Assembly: GCF_004009905.1 (NCBI RefSeq)
Contig: NZ_ML136871.1
Location: forward strand, 1-64,000
Source: Lactobacillus xujianguonis
GTDB taxonomy: Bacteria; Bacillota; Bacilli; Lactobacillales; Lactobacillaceae
DNA length: 64,000 nt
Direction of reading: 5' to 3'
Every line of letters starts with the position of its first letter. Position 1 is the first letter of the stretch. This document shows positions 47,912 to 59,677 of this stretch, in pieces. The translations under genes were made by a program, and so were the position numbers. Below the pieces are notes generated by a model that saw nothing but the letters and a program-made list of their open reading frames with translations, was not told the origin of the DNA and did no database searches.

Positions 47912-47927
47912 TGTACTTGCTTTTTTC
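47893..47927. terminator. Bidirectional terminator between the membrane-protein gene and degV
   Basis: AAAAAAGCAAGTACA and TGTACTTGCTTTTTT enclose a 4-base loop; the stem includes the last codons and stop of the upstream gene. Confidence 0.92.
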
Positions 47928-48850
47928 TAATCTTCAACAGGCTTAGAAGTAATCCCTTTGATGAGTTCATCATTTTCATCAAAGTAAGAATCAAGATCAC
48001 GACACCAAATCATAGCGATGGTGTGTTGCCCAACGTGAACGCCAACTACGGGTCCAATAATACTTTGATAGAACTTAACTTGTGGGAACTGCTTCCGATA
48101 ATCTTCCTGCCATTCTTTTTGTCGTTCTTCATCTAACGCATCAAAAATTGTGGCTTGAATTGGATAAGACATATCTGCTGTCAAACGAGCAAAATCTTTT
48201 TGGATATGCTTATAAGCGCGCCGATATTGCCGTTCCTTAGCAATAGCAGAAATTTTGCCTTGATCTTGCACATCCATTGACAAAATTGGCTTAATTTTAA
48301 GTAGGCCACCGACAAAACTAGCTGCATTTGATAAGCGCCCGGTCCGTTTCAAATGATTTAAGTTATCAACCATAAATCTGACATCGGTTGTATTACGTAA
48401 ATCCTCAAGATCATGCATGATTAAATCAAGATCTGCACCTTTAGCTACGAGTCTTGCTGCTAAAATTGCAGCATCAGCTTCTCCCGCACAAGTAATCTTG
48501 CAATCAAATGGATGAATCTTAATTCTTTTTTCTTCTTGAGCTACACTAGTAACCGTACTATAAAAACTAGATAATCCACTAGATATTGTAACGATAATTA
48601 AATCAGTGTAACCAGCTGCAACGTATTTATCGACATACTTTTGAACTTCACCAATTGAGGGTTGCGAAGTGGTTGGTAATTCTTTAGCACTAGCTAGTTT
48701 TTCATAAAATTCTTCATATCCGATATCTATTAGATCGCGATAAGTTTTATCACCCCAAATAATTGGAATCGGAATTACATCAATGTGATATTTTTCTTGT
48801 TGCTCTTTAGTTAAATATGCAGAACTGTCCGTTAAAACGGCTATTTTCAT
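47927..48850 (-). CDS. DegV family fatty-acid-binding protein, 307 aa
   Basis: DegV/FakB proteins bind an acyl chain and present it to the FakA kinase for incorporation into phospholipid. Family blocks: VLTDSSAYLT at the N-terminus, TTSQPSIGEV near residue 58, ISSGLSSFYSTV near 87 and FMVDNLNHLKRTGRLSNAASFVG near 159. Length is typical. It is a single-gene unit divergent from fhs and has a paralogue in this window at 58799-59677. Confidence 0.9.
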   Translation of the reverse strand: MKIAVLTDSSAYLTKEQQEKYHIDVIPIPIIWGDKTYRDLIDIGYEEFYEKLASAKELPTTSQPSIGEVQKYVDKYVAAGYTDLIIVTISSGLSSFYSTVTSVAQEEKRIKIHPFDCKITCAGEADAAILAARLVAKGADLDLIMHDLEDLRNTTDVRFMVDNLNHLKRTGRLSNAASFVGGLLKIKPILSMDVQDQGKISAIAKERQYRRAYKHIQKDFARLTADMSYPIQATIFDALDEERQKEWQEDYRKQFPQVKFYQSIIGPVVGVHVGQHTIAMIWCRDLDSYFDENDELIKGITSKPVED

Positions 48851-50713: not shown

Positions 50714-51184
50714 ATGCAAGCATTATATTTAATTATTTCCTTAATCGTTGTGATAGCTGATCAAGGTTTAAAATACTTTATCCTCAGCAATTACCAAGTA
50801 GGAGAAGTTCATCAAGTTATTCCAGGGATTTTATCCTTCAATTATTTGCAAAATAATGGCGCTGCTTGGAACATCCTTTCTGGACAAATGTGGTTCTTTT
50901 ATGCAATTAGCGTTGTTGCTATAGGTGTTTGTCTATACTTTTTATTTAATAAAAAGTATAGTGAGCCATTGTTTGATGTCGGCATTGCCTTAGTATTAGG
51001 CGGAATTAGTGGTAATTTCATTGATCGAATTCATTTGAAGTATGTAGTTGATATGTTTCAATTGGATTTTATTAATTTCAATATTTTTAATATTGCTGAC
51101 GCAGCAATTACAGTTGGAATAATTATTATTTTTATTTACTTACTATTTTTTGAAGAAAAAGAAAAGCACAATAATGACCAATAA
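50714..51184 (+). CDS. lspA: Lipoprotein signal peptidase (signal peptidase II), 156 aa
   Basis: Aspartic protease with four membrane segments that trims lipoprotein signal peptides after lipidation. The catalytic Asp residues are in GNFIDRIHLKYVVD (near residue 101) and FNIADAAI (near 121). The end overlaps the rluD-type gene by 11 bases. The lspA-rluD pair matches the Bacillus order just before the pyr operon. Confidence 0.95.
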   Translation: MQALYLIISLIVVIADQGLKYFILSNYQVGEVHQVIPGILSFNYLQNNGAAWNILSGQMWFFYAISVVAIGVCLYFLFNKKYSEPLFDVGIALVLGGISGNFIDRIHLKYVVDMFQLDFINFNIFNIADAAITVGIIIIFIYLLFFEEKEKHNNDQ

Positions 51185-52082
51185 ATATGTTTTAACTGTC
51201 AAAGACTCATCAATACGTCTTGATAAATATTTGGCTAGTGAATTGTCAGACCTATCTCGTACTCGAATTAAAGAGCTAGTTAAAGAGAATAATGTTCTCG
51301 TAAATGACAAATCGGAAAAGGTTTCTTATAAAGTTCAAGTGGGGGACGAAATTAAGGTAACTGTTCCAGCTTTAGAACCCTTGGCCGTTGAGCCAGAAGA
51401 TATTCCTTTAGACATTATCTATGAAGATGATGATGTCATTGTGGTTAATAAGCCGCAAGGGATGGTAGTTCATCCGGCTGCGGGACATCCCAACCATACT
51501 TTAGTCAATGCGCTACTTTATCATACGCGTGATCTGGCTCAAAGTCCGGAAGGTTTTCGTCCTGGAATTGTTCACCGGATTGATAAAGATACTTCTGGTT
51601 TATTGATGATTGCTAAAAATGCACCAGCTCGTGAATCTTTAGAGGATCAATTAGCTCACAAGACTAACAAGCGTCTATATTTAGCAATAGTTCATGGTAA
51701 CTTTTCAGAAGAAGCCGGAACAATCGACGCTCCCATCGGACGTAATCCTTTTGATCGCAAAAAGATGGCAGTGGTAGAGAAGGGCAAATCAGCTGTAACT
51801 CATTTTAAAGTATTGGAACAATTTAAAGATTACAGCTTAATTCAATGTCAATTAGAAACTGGCCGCACTCATCAAATTAGGGTTCATATGGCTTATATTG
51901 GGCACCCTGTAGCAGGAGATCCGTTATATGGTCCGCGTAAAACGCTGAAAGGTAACGGACAATTTTTGCATGCTGCCGTGCTTGGGTTTAAACATCCTAA
52001 AACAGGAGAGTGGCTTGAATTCAAAGTTGATCCACCGAAGATTTTTGAAGAAAGACTAGCTGAATTAAGAAAAAGCAAGTGA
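51174..52082 (+). CDS. RluD-type 23S rRNA pseudouridine synthase, 302 aa
   Basis: An N-terminal S4 RNA-binding domain (residues ~8-75) precedes the RluA-family catalytic domain; the catalytic Asp lies in GIVHRIDKDTSGLLMIAKN near residue 140. C-terminal blocks LETGRTHQIRVHMAYIGHPVAGD support the family. I use the ATG at 51174 (MTNKYVLTVKD); the open frame starts at 51150, but homology begins at the later ATG. The carA-like gene starts 4 bases after the stop, so they share a transcript. Related to Bacillus YlyB. Confidence 0.92.
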   Translation: MTNKYVLTVKDSSIRLDKYLASELSDLSRTRIKELVKENNVLVNDKSEKVSYKVQVGDEIKVTVPALEPLAVEPEDIPLDIIYEDDDVIVVNKPQGMVVHPAAGHPNHTLVNALLYHTRDLAQSPEGFRPGIVHRIDKDTSGLLMIAKNAPARESLEDQLAHKTNKRLYLAIVHGNFSEEAGTIDAPIGRNPFDRKKMAVVEKGKSAVTHFKVLEQFKDYSLIQCQLETGRTHQIRVHMAYIGHPVAGDPLYGPRKTLKGNGQFLHAAVLGFKHPKTGEWLEFKVDPPKIFEERLAELRKSK

Positions 52083-52086
52083 TTTT

Positions 52087-53142
52087 ATGAAACGTTATTT
52101 GATTCTAGAAGATGGAAGCTCATTTCCAGGAGAGGGCTTAGGAGCCACAATTATCTCTACTGGTGAGTTAGCAATTCAAACGGCGAATTTTGGTTATCAA
52201 GAAGCGTTAACTGATCCTACCAACGCCGGCAAAATTCTCTTTTTTACTACACCGATGATTGGTAACACCGGTATTAACGCTATCGATTATGAAAGCGTCA
52301 ATCCAACAGTTAAAGGAATTATTGCTAATGACGTAGCTACGAATATTTCTCAAAGCAGTGACTTTCAAGATTTAGATTCTTTTTTAAAAGAAAAAAATAT
52401 TCCTGCGATTTTTAATGTTGATACGCGTGCACTCGTTCATCGCTTAATGAATGAAGGAACTGTCAAGGCTTCAATCATGGATACCAATGATGAACATGCT
52501 TTTGATCAAATCAAAGCTTTGGTTTTACCTAAGAACAAATCAGCAACTGTTTCTACCAAGAATGCCTATGCTGCTCCTAATGTTGGTAAAACCGTAGCGG
52601 TAATTGATTTAGGATTGAAACATTCAATGTTAAGAGAATTATCGCTTCACCAAGTTAATGTCACGGTATTACCATATGATGCCACTCCAGTCGATATTGA
52701 AAACTTGCGACCAGATGGAATCGTAATTTCGAATGGTCCTGGTAAACCTGAAGAAGTAATGCACTCACTTAAGCCAATTTTAGATACTTATTATGGTAAG
52801 TATCCTATCTTAGGAATTGGTTTAGGCTTCTTAGTTCTCGGTGACTACCTAAAACTAGAATTAGTCGATTTACCTCAAGAATTTAACGGAATAAATTATC
52901 CCGTAATTGAACAAAATTCTAATCAAATTTGGCAAACAGCGATGGATATCGATCAGTTAGTACTACCAGAGAGTGTTCAAATTAACATGAATCAAGAATA
53001 TTTTGATCTACATACTGAATTATTGGCAGGCTATACACTTGAAAAAAAGAAGTTAATCGCGACTGCCTTTAATCCGGAAGGGGCACCGGGAAGTTTAGAT
53101 GCTGTTAAAATCTTTAATCAATTTTTGGATATGATGGAGTAA
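52087..53142 (+). CDS. carA: CarA-like protein (carbamoyl-phosphate synthase small subunit), glutaminase site lost, 351 aa
   Basis: Full-length relative of CPSase small subunit: LEDGSSFPGEGLGA, the N-terminal DTRALVHRL block, and a class I amidotransferase domain with SNGPGKPEE (215-223). The nucleophile motif, normally GICLGHQ, reads GIGLGFL (243-249): Cys is G245. The catalytic-His motif, normally HPE, is N329-P-E331. Only the Glu of the triad remains, so glutamine hydrolysis is not expected. The frame is intact and ordinary in codon use. It begins 4 bases after the rluD-type gene and ends 4 bases before the carB-like gene. No PyrR attenuator, pyrR or other pyr gene is adjacent. Probable pseudoenzyme. 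Confidence 0.9.
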   Translation: MKRYLILEDGSSFPGEGLGATIISTGELAIQTANFGYQEALTDPTNAGKILFFTTPMIGNTGINAIDYESVNPTVKGIIANDVATNISQSSDFQDLDSFLKEKNIPAIFNVDTRALVHRLMNEGTVKASIMDTNDEHAFDQIKALVLPKNKSATVSTKNAYAAPNVGKTVAVIDLGLKHSMLRELSLHQVNVTVLPYDATPVDIENLRPDGIVISNGPGKPEEVMHSLKPILDTYYGKYPILGIGLGFLVLGDYLKLELVDLPQEFNGINYPVIEQNSNQIWQTAMDIDQLVLPESVQINMNQEYFDLHTELLAGYTLEKKKLIATAFNPEGAPGSLDAVKIFNQFLDMME

Positions 53143-53146
53143 CGAA

Positions 53147-56100
53147 ATGCCTTTAGAAAACGATTTAGACAAGATTTTAATTATCGGTTCAGGTCCAACT
53201 TTAATTGGTAGCGTTGCCGAAATGGATTTATTAACTACAGATGCGATTAGTGCTTTAGTTGAAGAAGGGATTCAAGTTGTTTTAGTTAATCCTAATCCAG
53301 CAATGATTTCAACTGATCGTCGTTCAGGAGTAACTGTGTATCTAGAACCAATGACGTTAGATTTCTTAAAAAGAATCCTGCGTATGGAAGAACCAGATGC
53401 AATTATGACTGCCTATGGTTCAACTACCGGCTTAAAAGTTGCTCATAAACTGATTCAAGATGGTATCTTACAACAAATGGGCATTAAGTTACTTACTTTG
53501 AATCCCCGAACTCTAGCAATGGGCAACCAGCAAAAACGAATTGATTTCTTTACCAAATTAAAGATCGATGTCAATAAATCTTGGCAATTAGCTAAAAATG
53601 CGCAAATTGATTTAAAGGCAAGTCTAGCGCATTTACAAGAAGACGTTAGTTTTCCAATCTTAGTTACCAAGTATCATCGGTATGTCCACAATGACCATCA
53701 AGTCATGCGCAACATTGAAGCTTTAACCACTTACTTCCAACAAGAAAGTAAGAATGATTCCTTTTCATGGAAAAATTATCGCTTAACTGAAGATTTATCA
53801 GCATGGGAAGAAGTAGTGGTTAACCTAATTCGCGATCGGGACGGTAATATTGTCTTTCTAAATTTTGCAGATTCAATTGAGCCGGTAGGGATCAATTCTG
53901 GTGATTCTGCCATTGTGATGCCTGCTTTCACTTTAAATAATGATCAAATTCAGGAACTGCGAGCAATTGGTAAAAAAATAGCAGATAGCTTAAATGTTCT
54001 TGGAATTCTGAATCTACACTTTGCTGTTAAACATCACGGCACCCATCTGCGGATCAAAGTTTTATCAATTAAGCCACGACTAACTAGAAGTGCTGTTTGG
54101 ATTCAAAAAATTGGTTTATACAGTATTGGTTACATTGTGGCCAAAATTGCGATTGGCTATACCTTAAACGAAATTACTGACCCTGAATCAGGCCTAAAAG
54201 CTGCAGTTGAGCCGACTTTAGATACAGTTTCAATTAAAATGCCTTATTGGTCTTTAGCCGAATCAGGTTACAATCATTATCAATTAGGTAATCGCATGCA
54301 AGCCAGTGGCGAAGCAATGGGAGTGGGCCGGAATTTTGAATCTGCCTTTTTAAAAGGCCTTCAATCGACCTCTGATATTGATTTTGCCTGGAAAGTTTTT
54401 AATAAAGAATTGGCTAAAGATGTTGATGAAATTTTAAACGATTTAACTCACCCTGATGAAATGCATCTCATTAAACTTTTAGCTGCTATAGCTAAGGGCA
54501 TTAGTTATCCAGAATTATTTGCGGCTATTTCATTGCATCCCATTTACTATCAAAAATTGCAAAACATCATTCAAATTGGTCAGCAAGTTATTGATAGTGA
54601 AGAACTTACAGCAGAATGTCTACTTAATGCCAAAAAGTATGGCTTTTCAAATGAACTGATTGCTAAATTACGAGAAATTAGTTTAAACGAAGTCACACAA
54701 AAATTAGCTGAAAATCAGCTTCAGCCCTCATACTTGCAACTGGATGGTAGTGCGGGTGTTTATAAGCCAAACGTTCAAACATTTTACAGTGCTTATGGTG
54801 TCCAAAATGAAGTCACACCATTGCAGGCCAACAAGAAAGTTTTAATCATTGGTATGTTGCCTTTGCAAGTTTCTGTAACCAGCGAATTTGATTACATGAT
54901 TGCTCATGCAGCAGAAACTTTACATAATGAAGGTTATGCCACTATTCTTTTATCAAACAACGATGAATCAGTTGCCGCAAACTATAAAATGATTGACCGT
55001 GTCTATTTTGACGCAATTACAGTAGAAAATATTGTCGCAGTTGCTAAAAAAGAACATGTCAAAGATATTCTATTGCAATTTTCTGGTAAAAAAGTTAGTG
55101 CGCTCAGTGAGAAATTGATTGAAAACGGCTTGCATATTTTAGGTCGTGAAGATGTCGACCTTAGAGAGCGAATTAATGTACTATTAGCTACTTCCACAGA
55201 TGAAATAAAACGTGTTCCTTCATTGATTACGACAAAGCGAGAAAAAGTTAAGCAATTTGTTGACAAATTTGGCTTTCCAATTTTGATTGGCGGTTTTAGC
55301 AAAGATGTTAAACAAAAATCAGCGGTTGTTTATGATATTCCAGCGATCAAGAAATATCTTGAAGAAAATCAATTAGAACAAATCAATATTTCGCGCTTTA
55401 TTGAAGGAAATAAATATGAAGTCACCGCGATTTCTGATGGTCAACACGTTACTATTCCAGGAATTATTGAACACTTAGAACAAACAGGTTCACATGCTTC
55501 AGACTCCATTGCTGTCTTTAAGCCGCAAAATCTGAATCCAGAAAAACAAAAAGAACTTGCTCAAGAGTCCATCAAGCTTATTAAGCAATTAAATATTCGT
55601 GGTATTTATAACCTTCACTTTTTGAAAGTAAGAGACACGCTATATTTATTGCAAATCAAGCCATATGCTGGTCATAATGTCGCTTTTCTCTCAAAATCAG
55701 TTGGCAAAGATATTACTGCTTGCGCTACTGAAGTTATTGCCGGACGAAATTTAGCTGATCTAGGTTATAAAGAAGAACTTTGGCCAAGCAACAATTTCAT
55801 TCACGTTAAAATGCCAGTCTTTTCTTACATTAATTATTCAAGTGACAACACTTTCGACTCTAAGATGAAGTCTTCTGGCTCCGTAATGGGGAGAGATACA
55901 CAATTGGCTAAAGCTTTATATAAAGGATACGAAGCTAGTGATCTTCATATTCCGAGTTACGGGACCATCTTTATTTCTGTTCGTGATGAAGATAAAGCTC
56001 GAGTTACTCAATTAGCACGTCGCTTTGATCGCTTAGGCTTTAAGCTAGTGGCTACTGAAGGAACAGCTAATATGTTTGCGGAATCAGGGATAACTACTGG

Positions 56101-56332
56101 AGTAGTAGATAAAGTACATGATAATCCCAAGAATTTATTAGATAAAATTCGACAACACAAAATTGTCATGGTTGTAAACGTCATCAACTTATCTGATGCA
56201 GCTAGTTCAGATGCTATTCGCATTCGGGATCAAGCGCTCTACACACATATTCCAGTGTTCTCAAGCATTGAGACAGCTGAGTTAATTTTAGATGTCCTAG
56301 AGTCATTAGCTTTAACAACTCAACCAATTTAA
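53147..56332 (+). CDS. carB: CarB-like protein (carbamoyl-phosphate synthase large subunit) with both ATP-grasp sites degenerate, 1061 aa
   Basis: The CarB layout is complete: two ATP-grasp halves and a C-terminal MGS-like allosteric domain (939-1061). In the first half the loop after FPILVTK (169-175) lacks the glycines of the usual PSFTLGGTGGG block; the Q/E/N metal positions are H291, S307 and K309. In the second half FPILIGGFSKD lacks the Arg, and the positions are H824, Q836 and K838, with Y840 for Arg. By contrast K950, T970, T973, K989 and N1011 match the E. coli effector residues K954, T974, T977, K993 and N1015 (recalled), a constant offset of four. Catalysis looks lost while effector binding is retained. 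Intact frame, coupled to carA. Confidence 0.9.
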   Translation: MPLENDLDKILIIGSGPTLIGSVAEMDLLTTDAISALVEEGIQVVLVNPNPAMISTDRRSGVTVYLEPMTLDFLKRILRMEEPDAIMTAYGSTTGLKVAHKLIQDGILQQMGIKLLTLNPRTLAMGNQQKRIDFFTKLKIDVNKSWQLAKNAQIDLKASLAHLQEDVSFPILVTKYHRYVHNDHQVMRNIEALTTYFQQESKNDSFSWKNYRLTEDLSAWEEVVVNLIRDRDGNIVFLNFADSIEPVGINSGDSAIVMPAFTLNNDQIQELRAIGKKIADSLNVLGILNLHFAVKHHGTHLRIKVLSIKPRLTRSAVWIQKIGLYSIGYIVAKIAIGYTLNEITDPESGLKAAVEPTLDTVSIKMPYWSLAESGYNHYQLGNRMQASGEAMGVGRNFESAFLKGLQSTSDIDFAWKVFNKELAKDVDEILNDLTHPDEMHLIKLLAAIAKGISYPELFAAISLHPIYYQKLQNIIQIGQQVIDSEELTAECLLNAKKYGFSNELIAKLREISLNEVTQKLAENQLQPSYLQLDGSAGVYKPNVQTFYSAYGVQNEVTPLQANKKVLIIGMLPLQVSVTSEFDYMIAHAAETLHNEGYATILLSNNDESVAANYKMIDRVYFDAITVENIVAVAKKEHVKDILLQFSGKKVSALSEKLIENGLHILGREDVDLRERINVLLATSTDEIKRVPSLITTKREKVKQFVDKFGFPILIGGFSKDVKQKSAVVYDIPAIKKYLEENQLEQINISRFIEGNKYEVTAISDGQHVTIPGIIEHLEQTGSHASDSIAVFKPQNLNPEKQKELAQESIKLIKQLNIRGIYNLHFLKVRDTLYLLQIKPYAGHNVAFLSKSVGKDITACATEVIAGRNLADLGYKEELWPSNNFIHVKMPVFSYINYSSDNTFDSKMKSSGSVMGRDTQLAKALYKGYEASDLHIPSYGTIFISVRDEDKARVTQLARRFDRLGFKLVATEGTANMFAESGITTGVVDKVHDNPKNLLDKIRQHKIVMVVNVINLSDAASSDAIRIRDQALYTHIPVFSSIETAELILDVLESLALTTQPI

Positions 56333-58798: not shown

Positions 58799-59677
58799 AT
58801 GAAGATTGCATTAGTAACTGATAGTACTAGTGTCTTAACAGCTCAAGAAGTTAAAGAAAACAATGTAATCGTGATGCCGATTCCAGTTATTATTGGGAAT
58901 AAAGAATATTTAGAAGGTGTCAATATTACTTCTGAGCAATTATTCGAGACTCAAAGAAATGGTGCTGAATTCCCTAAAACTTCTCAACCAAGTATGGGAA
59001 AGATGATTGAGCTTTACAATAAATTACATGAAGACGGATATGAAGCAATTATTGATATTACTTTATCCAGTGGTATCTCTGGTTATTACCAAACTCTACA
59101 GAATATTGCAAAAAACAATCCACAATATCATTTATATCCATATGATTCAAAGATGACAGTTCGTTTGCAAGGTTATTTAGTTTTAGCAGCCGCAAGAATG
59201 ATCAAAAACGGCTTAGCACCAGAGCAAATTATCAATCATCTTGACAAAATCAGTAAAACTATTAATGAATTTTTTGTAGTTGATGACTTAAAAAACTTAA
59301 GTCGCGGTGGTCGTCTAAGTAATGCAAGTGCTTTTATTGGTACTATGCTTCATATAAAACCCTTATTAACCTTTGAAGATGGTAAAATTATCGCATTTGA
59401 TAAGATTCGCTCTATGAAACGCGCGGTTACTAAGATCGAGAATCTAACCTTACAAAAAACAGCTGGATTAGATTATAAAGATAAATTAAGATTATTTGTT
59501 TTTCATTCAAATGATTCAGTTCAAGCGCAGCAAATCAAGGAATTCTTAACTACTAATTTTCCAAATATGCCAATAGATGTAGCTGAATTCAGTCCTGTAA
59601 TTGCGACACACTTAGGTGAAAAATCAATTGCGATTGCGTGGATGATTGATATTGATAAGATTGATTTAACTAAATAG
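58799..59677 (+). CDS. DegV family fatty-acid-binding protein, second copy, 292 aa
   Basis: Same family as 47927-48850: LVTDSTSVLT at the N-terminus, KTSQPSMGKM near residue 59, LSSGISGYYQTL near 87, and FFVVDDLKNLSRGGRLSNASAFIGT near 157. It is 15 residues shorter than the first copy and clearly diverged, consistent with different acyl preferences as in FakB1/FakB2 (inference). An AAAGGGG site precedes the ATG. It may be controlled by the MarR protein upstream. Confidence 0.9.
   Translation: MKIALVTDSTSVLTAQEVKENNVIVMPIPVIIGNKEYLEGVNITSEQLFETQRNGAEFPKTSQPSMGKMIELYNKLHEDGYEAIIDITLSSGISGYYQTLQNIAKNNPQYHLYPYDSKMTVRLQGYLVLAAARMIKNGLAPEQIINHLDKISKTINEFFVVDDLKNLSRGGRLSNASAFIGTMLHIKPLLTFEDGKIIAFDKIRSMKRAVTKIENLTLQKTAGLDYKDKLRLFVFHSNDSVQAQQIKEFLTTNFPNMPIDVAEFSPVIATHLGEKSIAIAWMIDIDKIDLTK

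Follow-up and report, generated by a model that had tools for sequence, protein, structure and literature searches.

In the analysed stretch of Lactobacillus xujianguonis DNA (64,000 nucleotides; hereafter the window), two adjacent genes, carA' and carB', encode a version of carbamoyl-phosphate synthase (CPSase) that very probably no longer works as a CPSase and is kept for a different function. The fuller statement, that in Lactobacillus carA'B' persists as an inactive CPSase heterodimer serving as a regulatory or scaffold complex that senses nucleotides, is evenly balanced between right and wrong. The observation is wider than the earlier note, which described the small subunit: CarB' also appears dead, the genes lie at the pyr-operon locus, and dead CarA is common family-wide. 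The two genes and their altered sites are:

52087..53142 (+): carA', CarA-like small subunit of 351 aa, dead by sequence, with the Pfam domains CPSase_sm_chain and GATase
52819..52821 (+): carA' codon 245, by alignment a Gly where the catalytic Cys (E. coli Cys269) is expected
53071..53073 (+): carA' codon 329, by alignment an Asn where the catalytic His (E. coli His353) is expected
53147..56332 (+): carB', CarB-like large subunit of 1061 aa, both ATP-grasp sites apparently dead, predicted fold kept
54065..54073 (+): CarB' residues 307-309 (S, I, K), covering the positions of the site-1 metal ligands Glu299 and Asn301
55289..55291 (+): CarB' Gly715, replacing site-2 Arg715
55652..55675 (+): CarB' residues 836-843 (Q836, K838, Y840, H843), a fixed alternative set for site-2 Glu841/Asn843/Arg845/Arg848

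The frame at 52087-53142 on the forward strand is open over 351 codons with a single stop, at its end, as the earlier note had it, and the motifs read as described there: residue 245 is Gly within GIGLGFL, HPE has become NPE with Asn at residue 329 (within NPEG), and SNGPG is intact. Cys269 and His353 are presumably the catalytic pair of E. coli CarA, Cys269 also appearing in the title of entry 1c30. A PDB alignment pairs G245 with the GATase-motif Cys and N329 with the active-site His; E. coli entry 1a9x chain B has Asn at the active-site His position in this same alignment. The window's CarA' contains zero cysteines, so neither a shifted nor a substitute nucleophile is possible elsewhere in the fold. 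An identical Gly/Phe/Leu/Asn/Glu set occurs in all 43 genus rows fetched (43 of the 59 dead CarA found) and in 54/54 rows of a second set, comprising the 53 loci L143-L195 from the best 80 of 86 relatives in a species scan plus the window; the two sets share some species. Because this set recurs throughout both, the motif changes are not chance.

CarA' matches CPSase_sm_chain at 130.2 bits and class I GATase at 65.5 bits, both above the Pfam cut-offs, and scores 423.3 bits with the equivalog model NF009475 (cut-off 221) and 267.8 bits with TIGR01368 (cut-off 307.35). It lacks the catalytic Cys269 and His353 required of the small subunit of a glutamine-hydrolysing CPSase. Judged by its residues, CarA' should be unable to hydrolyse glutamine, leaving it some other role or none, as had been proposed. 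Another role is favoured, because a canonical carA lies elsewhere in the genome, intact orthologues occur genus-wide and dN/dS is far below 1. A supposedly new conserved linker in CarA' (residues 129-152) was discarded: its residues also occur in most of the canonical rows from this locus, and the contrast arose from the six rows of the other canonical lineage.

Both ATP-grasp sites of CarB' are altered in the same 54 genus rows (L143-L195, from the best 80 of 86, plus the window). At site 1, the Arg169 position holds Thr in 30 rows, Ile in 16, Ser in 3, Ala in 2, and Val, Lys and Asn in 1 each; the Glu299 position holds Ser (26), Thr (17), Ala (6), Asn (2), Gly (2) or Asp (1), and the Asn301 position Lys (44), Arg (7) or Thr, Asn and Ser (1 each), with His at the Gln285 position in 54/54. 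At site 2, Arg715 is replaced by Gly in 54/54. One row has a gap at each of the remaining site-2 positions, where the others show His (51) or Asn (2) for Gln829, Gln (53) for Glu841, Lys (53) for Asn843, Tyr (52) or Phe (1) for Arg845, and His (53) for Arg848. Canonical CarB keeps the E. coli residues at these site-1 and site-2 positions (Gln/Glu/Arg/Glu/Asn) in 16/16 comparison rows; we take these residues to have the ATP-site and metal-ligand roles assigned to them here. E. coli Arg129 was rejected as a test position, the alignment giving Glu there in 16/16 canonical rows. On this evidence CarB' lacks the metal and ATP ligands of a CPSase large subunit at both ATP sites. Because the site-2 replacements are nearly fixed across the genus and the site-1 replacements mostly drift, except for His at Gln285, it looks as if site 2 has been put to new use and site 1 given up.

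Such a pattern could also mark a neofunctionalised enzyme, in which the rebuilt second ATP-grasp pocket carries out another reaction or accepts another substrate. The pocket would comprise Gly715 (54/54), His824 (51/53 rows with a letter), Gln836 (53/53), Lys838 (53/53), Tyr840 (52/53) and His843 (53/53), with His776, Glu778 and His783 retained, and the site-2 replacement set is common to L073 and L074 as well. We nevertheless consider a new catalytic activity unlikely, as CarB' has lost both Glu841, an acidic metal ligand, and the neighbouring Asn843 with no substitute metal site identified, and other genera did not build the same site-2 set. In the row L090 (genus code g22), CarB has an apparently intact site 1 and a destroyed site 2, and might be a half-active bicarbonate-dependent ATPase.

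The domain layout of CarB' is complete, with two pre-ATP-grasp/ATP-grasp halves, the oligomerisation domain and the MGS domain all present; it scores 674.1 with TIGR01369 (cut-off 1027) and 706.9 with NF003671 (cut-off 599). Its predicted structure (pLDDT 84.7, pTM 0.87) resembles E. coli CarB over its length with a TM-score of 0.87. The CarA' model is weaker (pLDDT 74.4, pTM 0.55); its best matches are CarA chains at a whole-chain TM of 0.48-0.51, and its predicted GATase half fits single-domain GATases with a target TM of up to 0.83.

Dead CarA is retained almost throughout the genus. It is present at 60-100% identity in 59/61 genus genomes, and the two genomes without it are only 76% and 59% complete. 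Its frame has no inner stop in any of the 59, so the broken copies that the earlier note had set against its reading do not appear. The species scan covered one genome per species with two peptides conserved in the dead form; its best 80 of 86 relatives are no census. In 80/80 of these loci the Cys position holds Gly and a CarB-like gene is present. Matches include L. johnsonii, L. jensenii, L. delbrueckii and L. kefiranofaciens. Rows L143-L195 (53) comprise Lactobacillus species, MAGs and one record labelled Faecalicatena absiana; rows L196-L222 (27) are from Holzapfeliella, Companilactobacillus, Schleiferilactobacillus and two MAGs labelled Lactobacillus. CarB' is full length in 51/53 of L143-L195, the others being L188 (797 aa), which ends with its contig, and L143 (966 aa). 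Another row, L035, has a CarB' of 966 aa with a frameshift in the MGS region and the remainder in another frame; L143 has the same length, and a sequencing error is possible. The record titled Faecalicatena absiana (L185) has a Lactobacillus-like carA'B' locus whose CarA and CarB are 67% and 57% identical to those of the window, as in the L. delbrueckii row L179, and is possibly contamination or a mislabelled genome.

The genes carA'B' are under purifying selection. Median pairwise dN/dS (Nei-Gojobori; rows L185, L187 and L188 dropped) is 0.106 for CarA' (108 pairs) and 0.122 for CarB' (107 pairs), pairs that share rows and are not independent; these values are far from the dN/dS near 1 that the earlier note had set against its reading. 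For neighbouring genes, in the subsets of these pairs where each was found, the medians are 0.087 for RluD (92 pairs), 0.051 for Fhs (67) and 0.059 for RqcH (75). In closer pairs (22 for CarB'), dN/dS stays at 0.03-0.14 in each domain; CarA' and, within CarB', the MGS and N-terminal regions have the lowest values and the oligomerisation domain the highest. With catalytic residues lost, and frame and selection kept across species, the pair qualifies as a pseudoenzyme.

Constraint within CarB' has shifted toward its allosteric domain:

55958..56329 (+): MGS-like domain (allosteric), the best conserved part of CarB', containing K950, T970, T973 and K989

Mean identity in CarB' is 0.70 for the MGS domain and 0.53 for ATP-grasp 1 (41 genus rows; L035 and L062 dropped), whereas in canonical CarB the MGS domain is the least conserved (0.57-0.64) and ATP-grasp site 1 reaches 0.82-0.84 (7 and 11 rows). 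Compared with canonical CarB, CarB' has the higher mean column entropy in every domain but MGS, where its value is 0.78 against 1.20; a Mann-Whitney comparison with the other columns gives p 1.9e-27, a value overstated because alignment columns are not independent. Among the domains of CarB', conservation and constraint are both weakest in the oligomerisation domain.

The residues of the putative effector pocket are likewise kept. Lys954 and Thr974 are presumably UMP/IMP residues of E. coli CarB, in addition to three others. Section 9 of PMC6245113 ties Thr977, Lys993 and Ser948 of E. coli CarB to UMP/IMP. All five positions (S948, K954, T974, T977 and K993) are unchanged wherever a genus row has a letter; outside the genus set, Lys993 is lost in L082, L083 and L090. 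On the ornithine side, to which we take Glu892, Glu783 and Asp791 to belong, the Thr1042 position is Ser in CarB' and Thr in canonical Lactobacillaceae, the Glu892 position is Met in CarB' and Ala in canonical Lactobacillaceae, and Glu783 and Asp791 are kept in 54/54 genus rows of CarB'. Many CarB-like proteins of other genera are short (796-865 aa), and seven of nine tested, the seven having been chosen for being short, lack an MGS match. Because many forms in other genera have no such match, MGS sensing is not the family-wide role.

The pair occupies a locus that holds the pyr operon in other genera and is marked there by lspA-rluD:

50714..51184 (+): lspA, upstream of rluD
51150..52082 (+): rluD, 4 bases upstream of carA' and possibly on one transcript with it; its true start may be an inner ATG

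Gene order in the genus is (fhs-)lspA-rluD-carA'-carB', then rqcH in the loci printed. The rluD-carA' and carA'-carB' gaps are mostly a few bases, with L173 as an exception (2166 bases before carA'). Two genes, which we take to encode DegV-like proteins (window 47927-48850, reverse strand, and 58799-59677, forward strand), flank the fhs-lspA-rluD-carA'B'-rqcH block, one on each side. A promoter scan gave 16 sites against 27.9 in shuffles, and PADLOC returned no match that would indicate an antiphage role.

In other genera, the same locus carries one of two arrangements: a pyr operon whose CarAB is canonical, or a CarB-like gene accompanied by a dead CarA. Among 28 family rows, 17 have Gly and 11 have Cys at the catalytic position; L073 and L074, from sister genera, have Gly as well, and 20 further rows add 16 Gly and 4 Cys, one of them (L242) from the same genome as L098. 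No other residue occurs at this position among the family rows examined, which were picked among window-protein matches at E 1e-72 or better in 160/251 family genomes. At least one Gly-for-Cys CarA is present in 24/30 of the Lactobacillaceae genera looked at, the window's genus included; as 30 of 40 genus codes were covered, this is no census. Canonical CarA at this locus has PyrR-PyrP-PyrB-PyrC upstream in 14/14 rows, a fifteenth (L087) lying elsewhere with PyrB-PyrC, and PyrB and PyrC are absent from the dead locus in 35/35 rows outside the genus. CPSase death therefore accompanies the loss of pyrB and pyrC. In 30 of these 35 rows PyrR immediately precedes the dead carA; L073 has PyrP alone and four have neither. 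Downstream of the dead operon region in L225 lies a THF riboswitch aptamer (L225:12662-12761, forward strand; Rfam RF01831, 76.8 bits).

A second, canonical carA does exist in the window's own genome (C2:131603-132658), directly after pyrC, with carB next to it and pyrB and pyrR adjoining. It belongs to the same family as CarA' (36% identity) and keeps GICMGHQ and HPD, whereas CarA' is without both catalytic residues. Across the genus, a second CarA (30-38% identity) is present in 41/61 genomes, with Cys and His in 7/7 of those read, and PyrB exceeds the model cut-off in 40/61, all among the 41; the sole second-CarA genome lacking a full PyrB match, G043, has PyrB in pieces. Canonical genus CarA (L034, C2 of the window's genome) groups with L089, L239 and L240 (genus code g31) and not with the old-locus CarA, so the active pyr operon of the genus may have been regained by transfer.

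Dead CarA is kept without a second CarA and without PyrB above the cut-off in 18/61 genus genomes. Two of the 18 have PyrB matches below the cut-off, at 177 bits with an inner stop in G014 and 158 bits in G038, possibly a PyrB remnant or a divergent carbamoyltransferase. PyrR (E 1e-10) has no match in 8 of the 18, 6 of the 8 being 93-99% complete. Since these 18 pathway-less genomes keep CarA', and 8 of them have no PyrR match, the dead pair is not solely a modulator of the pyrimidine pathway or of PyrR.

These counts bear on two further explanations. That carA'B' is a partner of PyrR or PyrP in uracil-responsive control is suggested by the position of PyrR between rluD and dead carA outside the genus set, in the 30/35 rows above and in 26/27 scan rows outside L143-L195 (best 80 of 86), and by PyrR-element RNA at gathering score in 3/13 dead loci scanned (L073, L074 and L086), as at canonical L232. 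The window's own locus (L033) shows no such RNA at gathering score, neither gene lies between rluD and carA' in 53 scan rows (L143-L195, best 80 of 86; L187 has no RluD within its stretch) or in 43 other genus rows, and PyrR is unmatched in 8 of the 18 genomes that lack a second CarA, making this partnership distinctly unlikely. A regulatory decoy, in which CarB' mixes into canonical CPSase oligomers or CarA' competes for the active enzyme, would fit the coexistence of dead and second CarA in 41/61 genomes and the presence of an oligomerisation domain. It is improbable, given the 18 genomes that keep dead CarA with neither a second CarA nor PyrB above the cut-off, and given the low conservation and constraint of that very domain.

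A decaying pseudogene, or one kept only through operon polarity, is very improbable: the catalytic residues are gone, CarB' is frameshifted in L035 and of equal length in L143, but 59/61 genomes show no inner stop in CarA', dN/dS is 0.03-0.14 (unless selection acts on the DNA otherwise), the MGS domain is more conserved than in active enzymes and the predicted fold is kept. Hardly credible at all is an ammonia-dependent CPSase with the glutaminase alone lost, as in mammalian CPS1, which has lost its glutaminase Cys and uses ammonia with working ATP sites; both ATP sites of CarB' appear dismantled, and their residues exclude this for the Lactobacillus form.

The dead state likely arose at least twice with the same Cys-to-Gly change, as judged from the phylogeny of CarA. 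In a tree of 68 rows, thinned so that, for example, L043, L057, L060, L062, L067, L068, L070 and L094 are left out, the dead row L231 falls inside canonical rows (98/93) and at least 3 state changes are needed. Grouping all 42 dead rows in a single clade is rejected (p 0.024); without L231, a long row, one clade is not rejected (p 0.47), and a 58-row tree lacking L231 places 29 dead rows on one side of a branch with weak support (42/76). At least two origins are likely rather than certain because the one-clade rejection rests on L231. Between them, the 42 dead rows use all four GGN codons for this Gly. In a quick tree of flanking genes, from which six family rows were excluded because they had too few genes (five had only RluD) and in which L089 was kept with two, dead and canonical genera are interleaved; a count of 7 changes on this tree was set aside, as L094 was counted dead there but is canonical.

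Both states also occur within one genus and within one genome. Within genus code g23, L232 has a canonical pyr operon and L231 has a dead CarA with pyrB and pyrC gone; in L231 a CarB-like frame of 643 aa is followed by genes resembling pyrF and pyrE by eye, possibly an early stage. Genome G070 carries a dead CarA (L086, 72% identical to canonical L079) alongside a canonical CarA (L087).

The preferred reading of carA'B' as a non-catalytic, nucleotide-sensing complex can be set out in steps. The carA'-carB' pair would be the remnant of a pyr-operon CPSase that once lay between rluD and rqcH. By sequence, with essential residues lost at the glutaminase and both ATP-grasp sites, the pair can no longer make carbamoyl phosphate, and purifying selection keeps it, also in species without a detectable pyrimidine pathway. 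The fold and strict pairing suggest that CarA' and CarB' still form a CPSase-like heterodimer. The MGS domain of CarB' may bind an effector that carries phosphate, with UMP or a nucleotide like it as the probable ligand, and the signal may pass through the rebuilt, conserved second ATP-grasp pocket to a putative partner. Because many forms in other genera lack an MGS match, any family-wide role must lie in CarA' and the N-terminal half of CarB', and we infer that the nucleotide-sensing part is limited to Lactobacillus and its two closest sampled genera. A broader and more tentative proposal, somewhat doubtful as it stands, is that the pyr-locus CPSase of Lactobacillaceae turned more than once, always by the CarA Cys-to-Gly change, into a non-catalytic complex whose own role outlives pyrimidine synthesis: a regulatory pseudoenzyme class, acting as a nucleotide sensor in Lactobacillus. 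If so, active CarAB would already have a hidden second role in these bacteria.

Compared with known systems, carA'B' shares with E. coli CarA/CarB (1jdb, 1a9x, 1bxr) the two-subunit order, domain layout, predicted fold and MGS UMP/IMP residues, and differs in lacking the catalytic Cys/His, the usual metal ligands and the ATP-site Arg at both ATP sites. Mammalian CPS1 has also lost its glutaminase Cys, but its ATP sites work, whereas those of CarB' appear gone. In Pseudomonas putida, an inactive dihydroorotase is reportedly needed for ATCase assembly, according to a title cited in PMC6022934; like carA'B' it is a dead pyrimidine-pathway enzyme, kept there as a structural partner. That protein serves an active ATCase, whereas carA'B' appears dead in both subunits and survives without a detectable pathway.

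No description of a degenerate or pseudo-CPSase in lactobacilli was found in the open-access literature, a scope that leaves out most subscription journals. Excerpts of PMC3582564 describe pyr-operon genes as conserved among many lactobacilli and discuss CO2 need, and a dead copy is not mentioned in those excerpts. In the excerpted part of PMC5453994, carA/carB of L. acetotolerans are reported with pyrB/pyrC, a record not assignable to the dead copy.

The finding matters for annotation, as the naming models NF009475 and NF003671, both scoring above cut-off, take carA'B' for carbamoyl-phosphate synthase, and genome-based reconstructions could credit pathway-less lactobacilli with a CPSase that is absent. 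An enzyme with three active sites, apparently dead at every one, retained genus-wide and with selection on its effector domain, would offer a natural case for studying the non-catalytic roles of allosteric enzymes.
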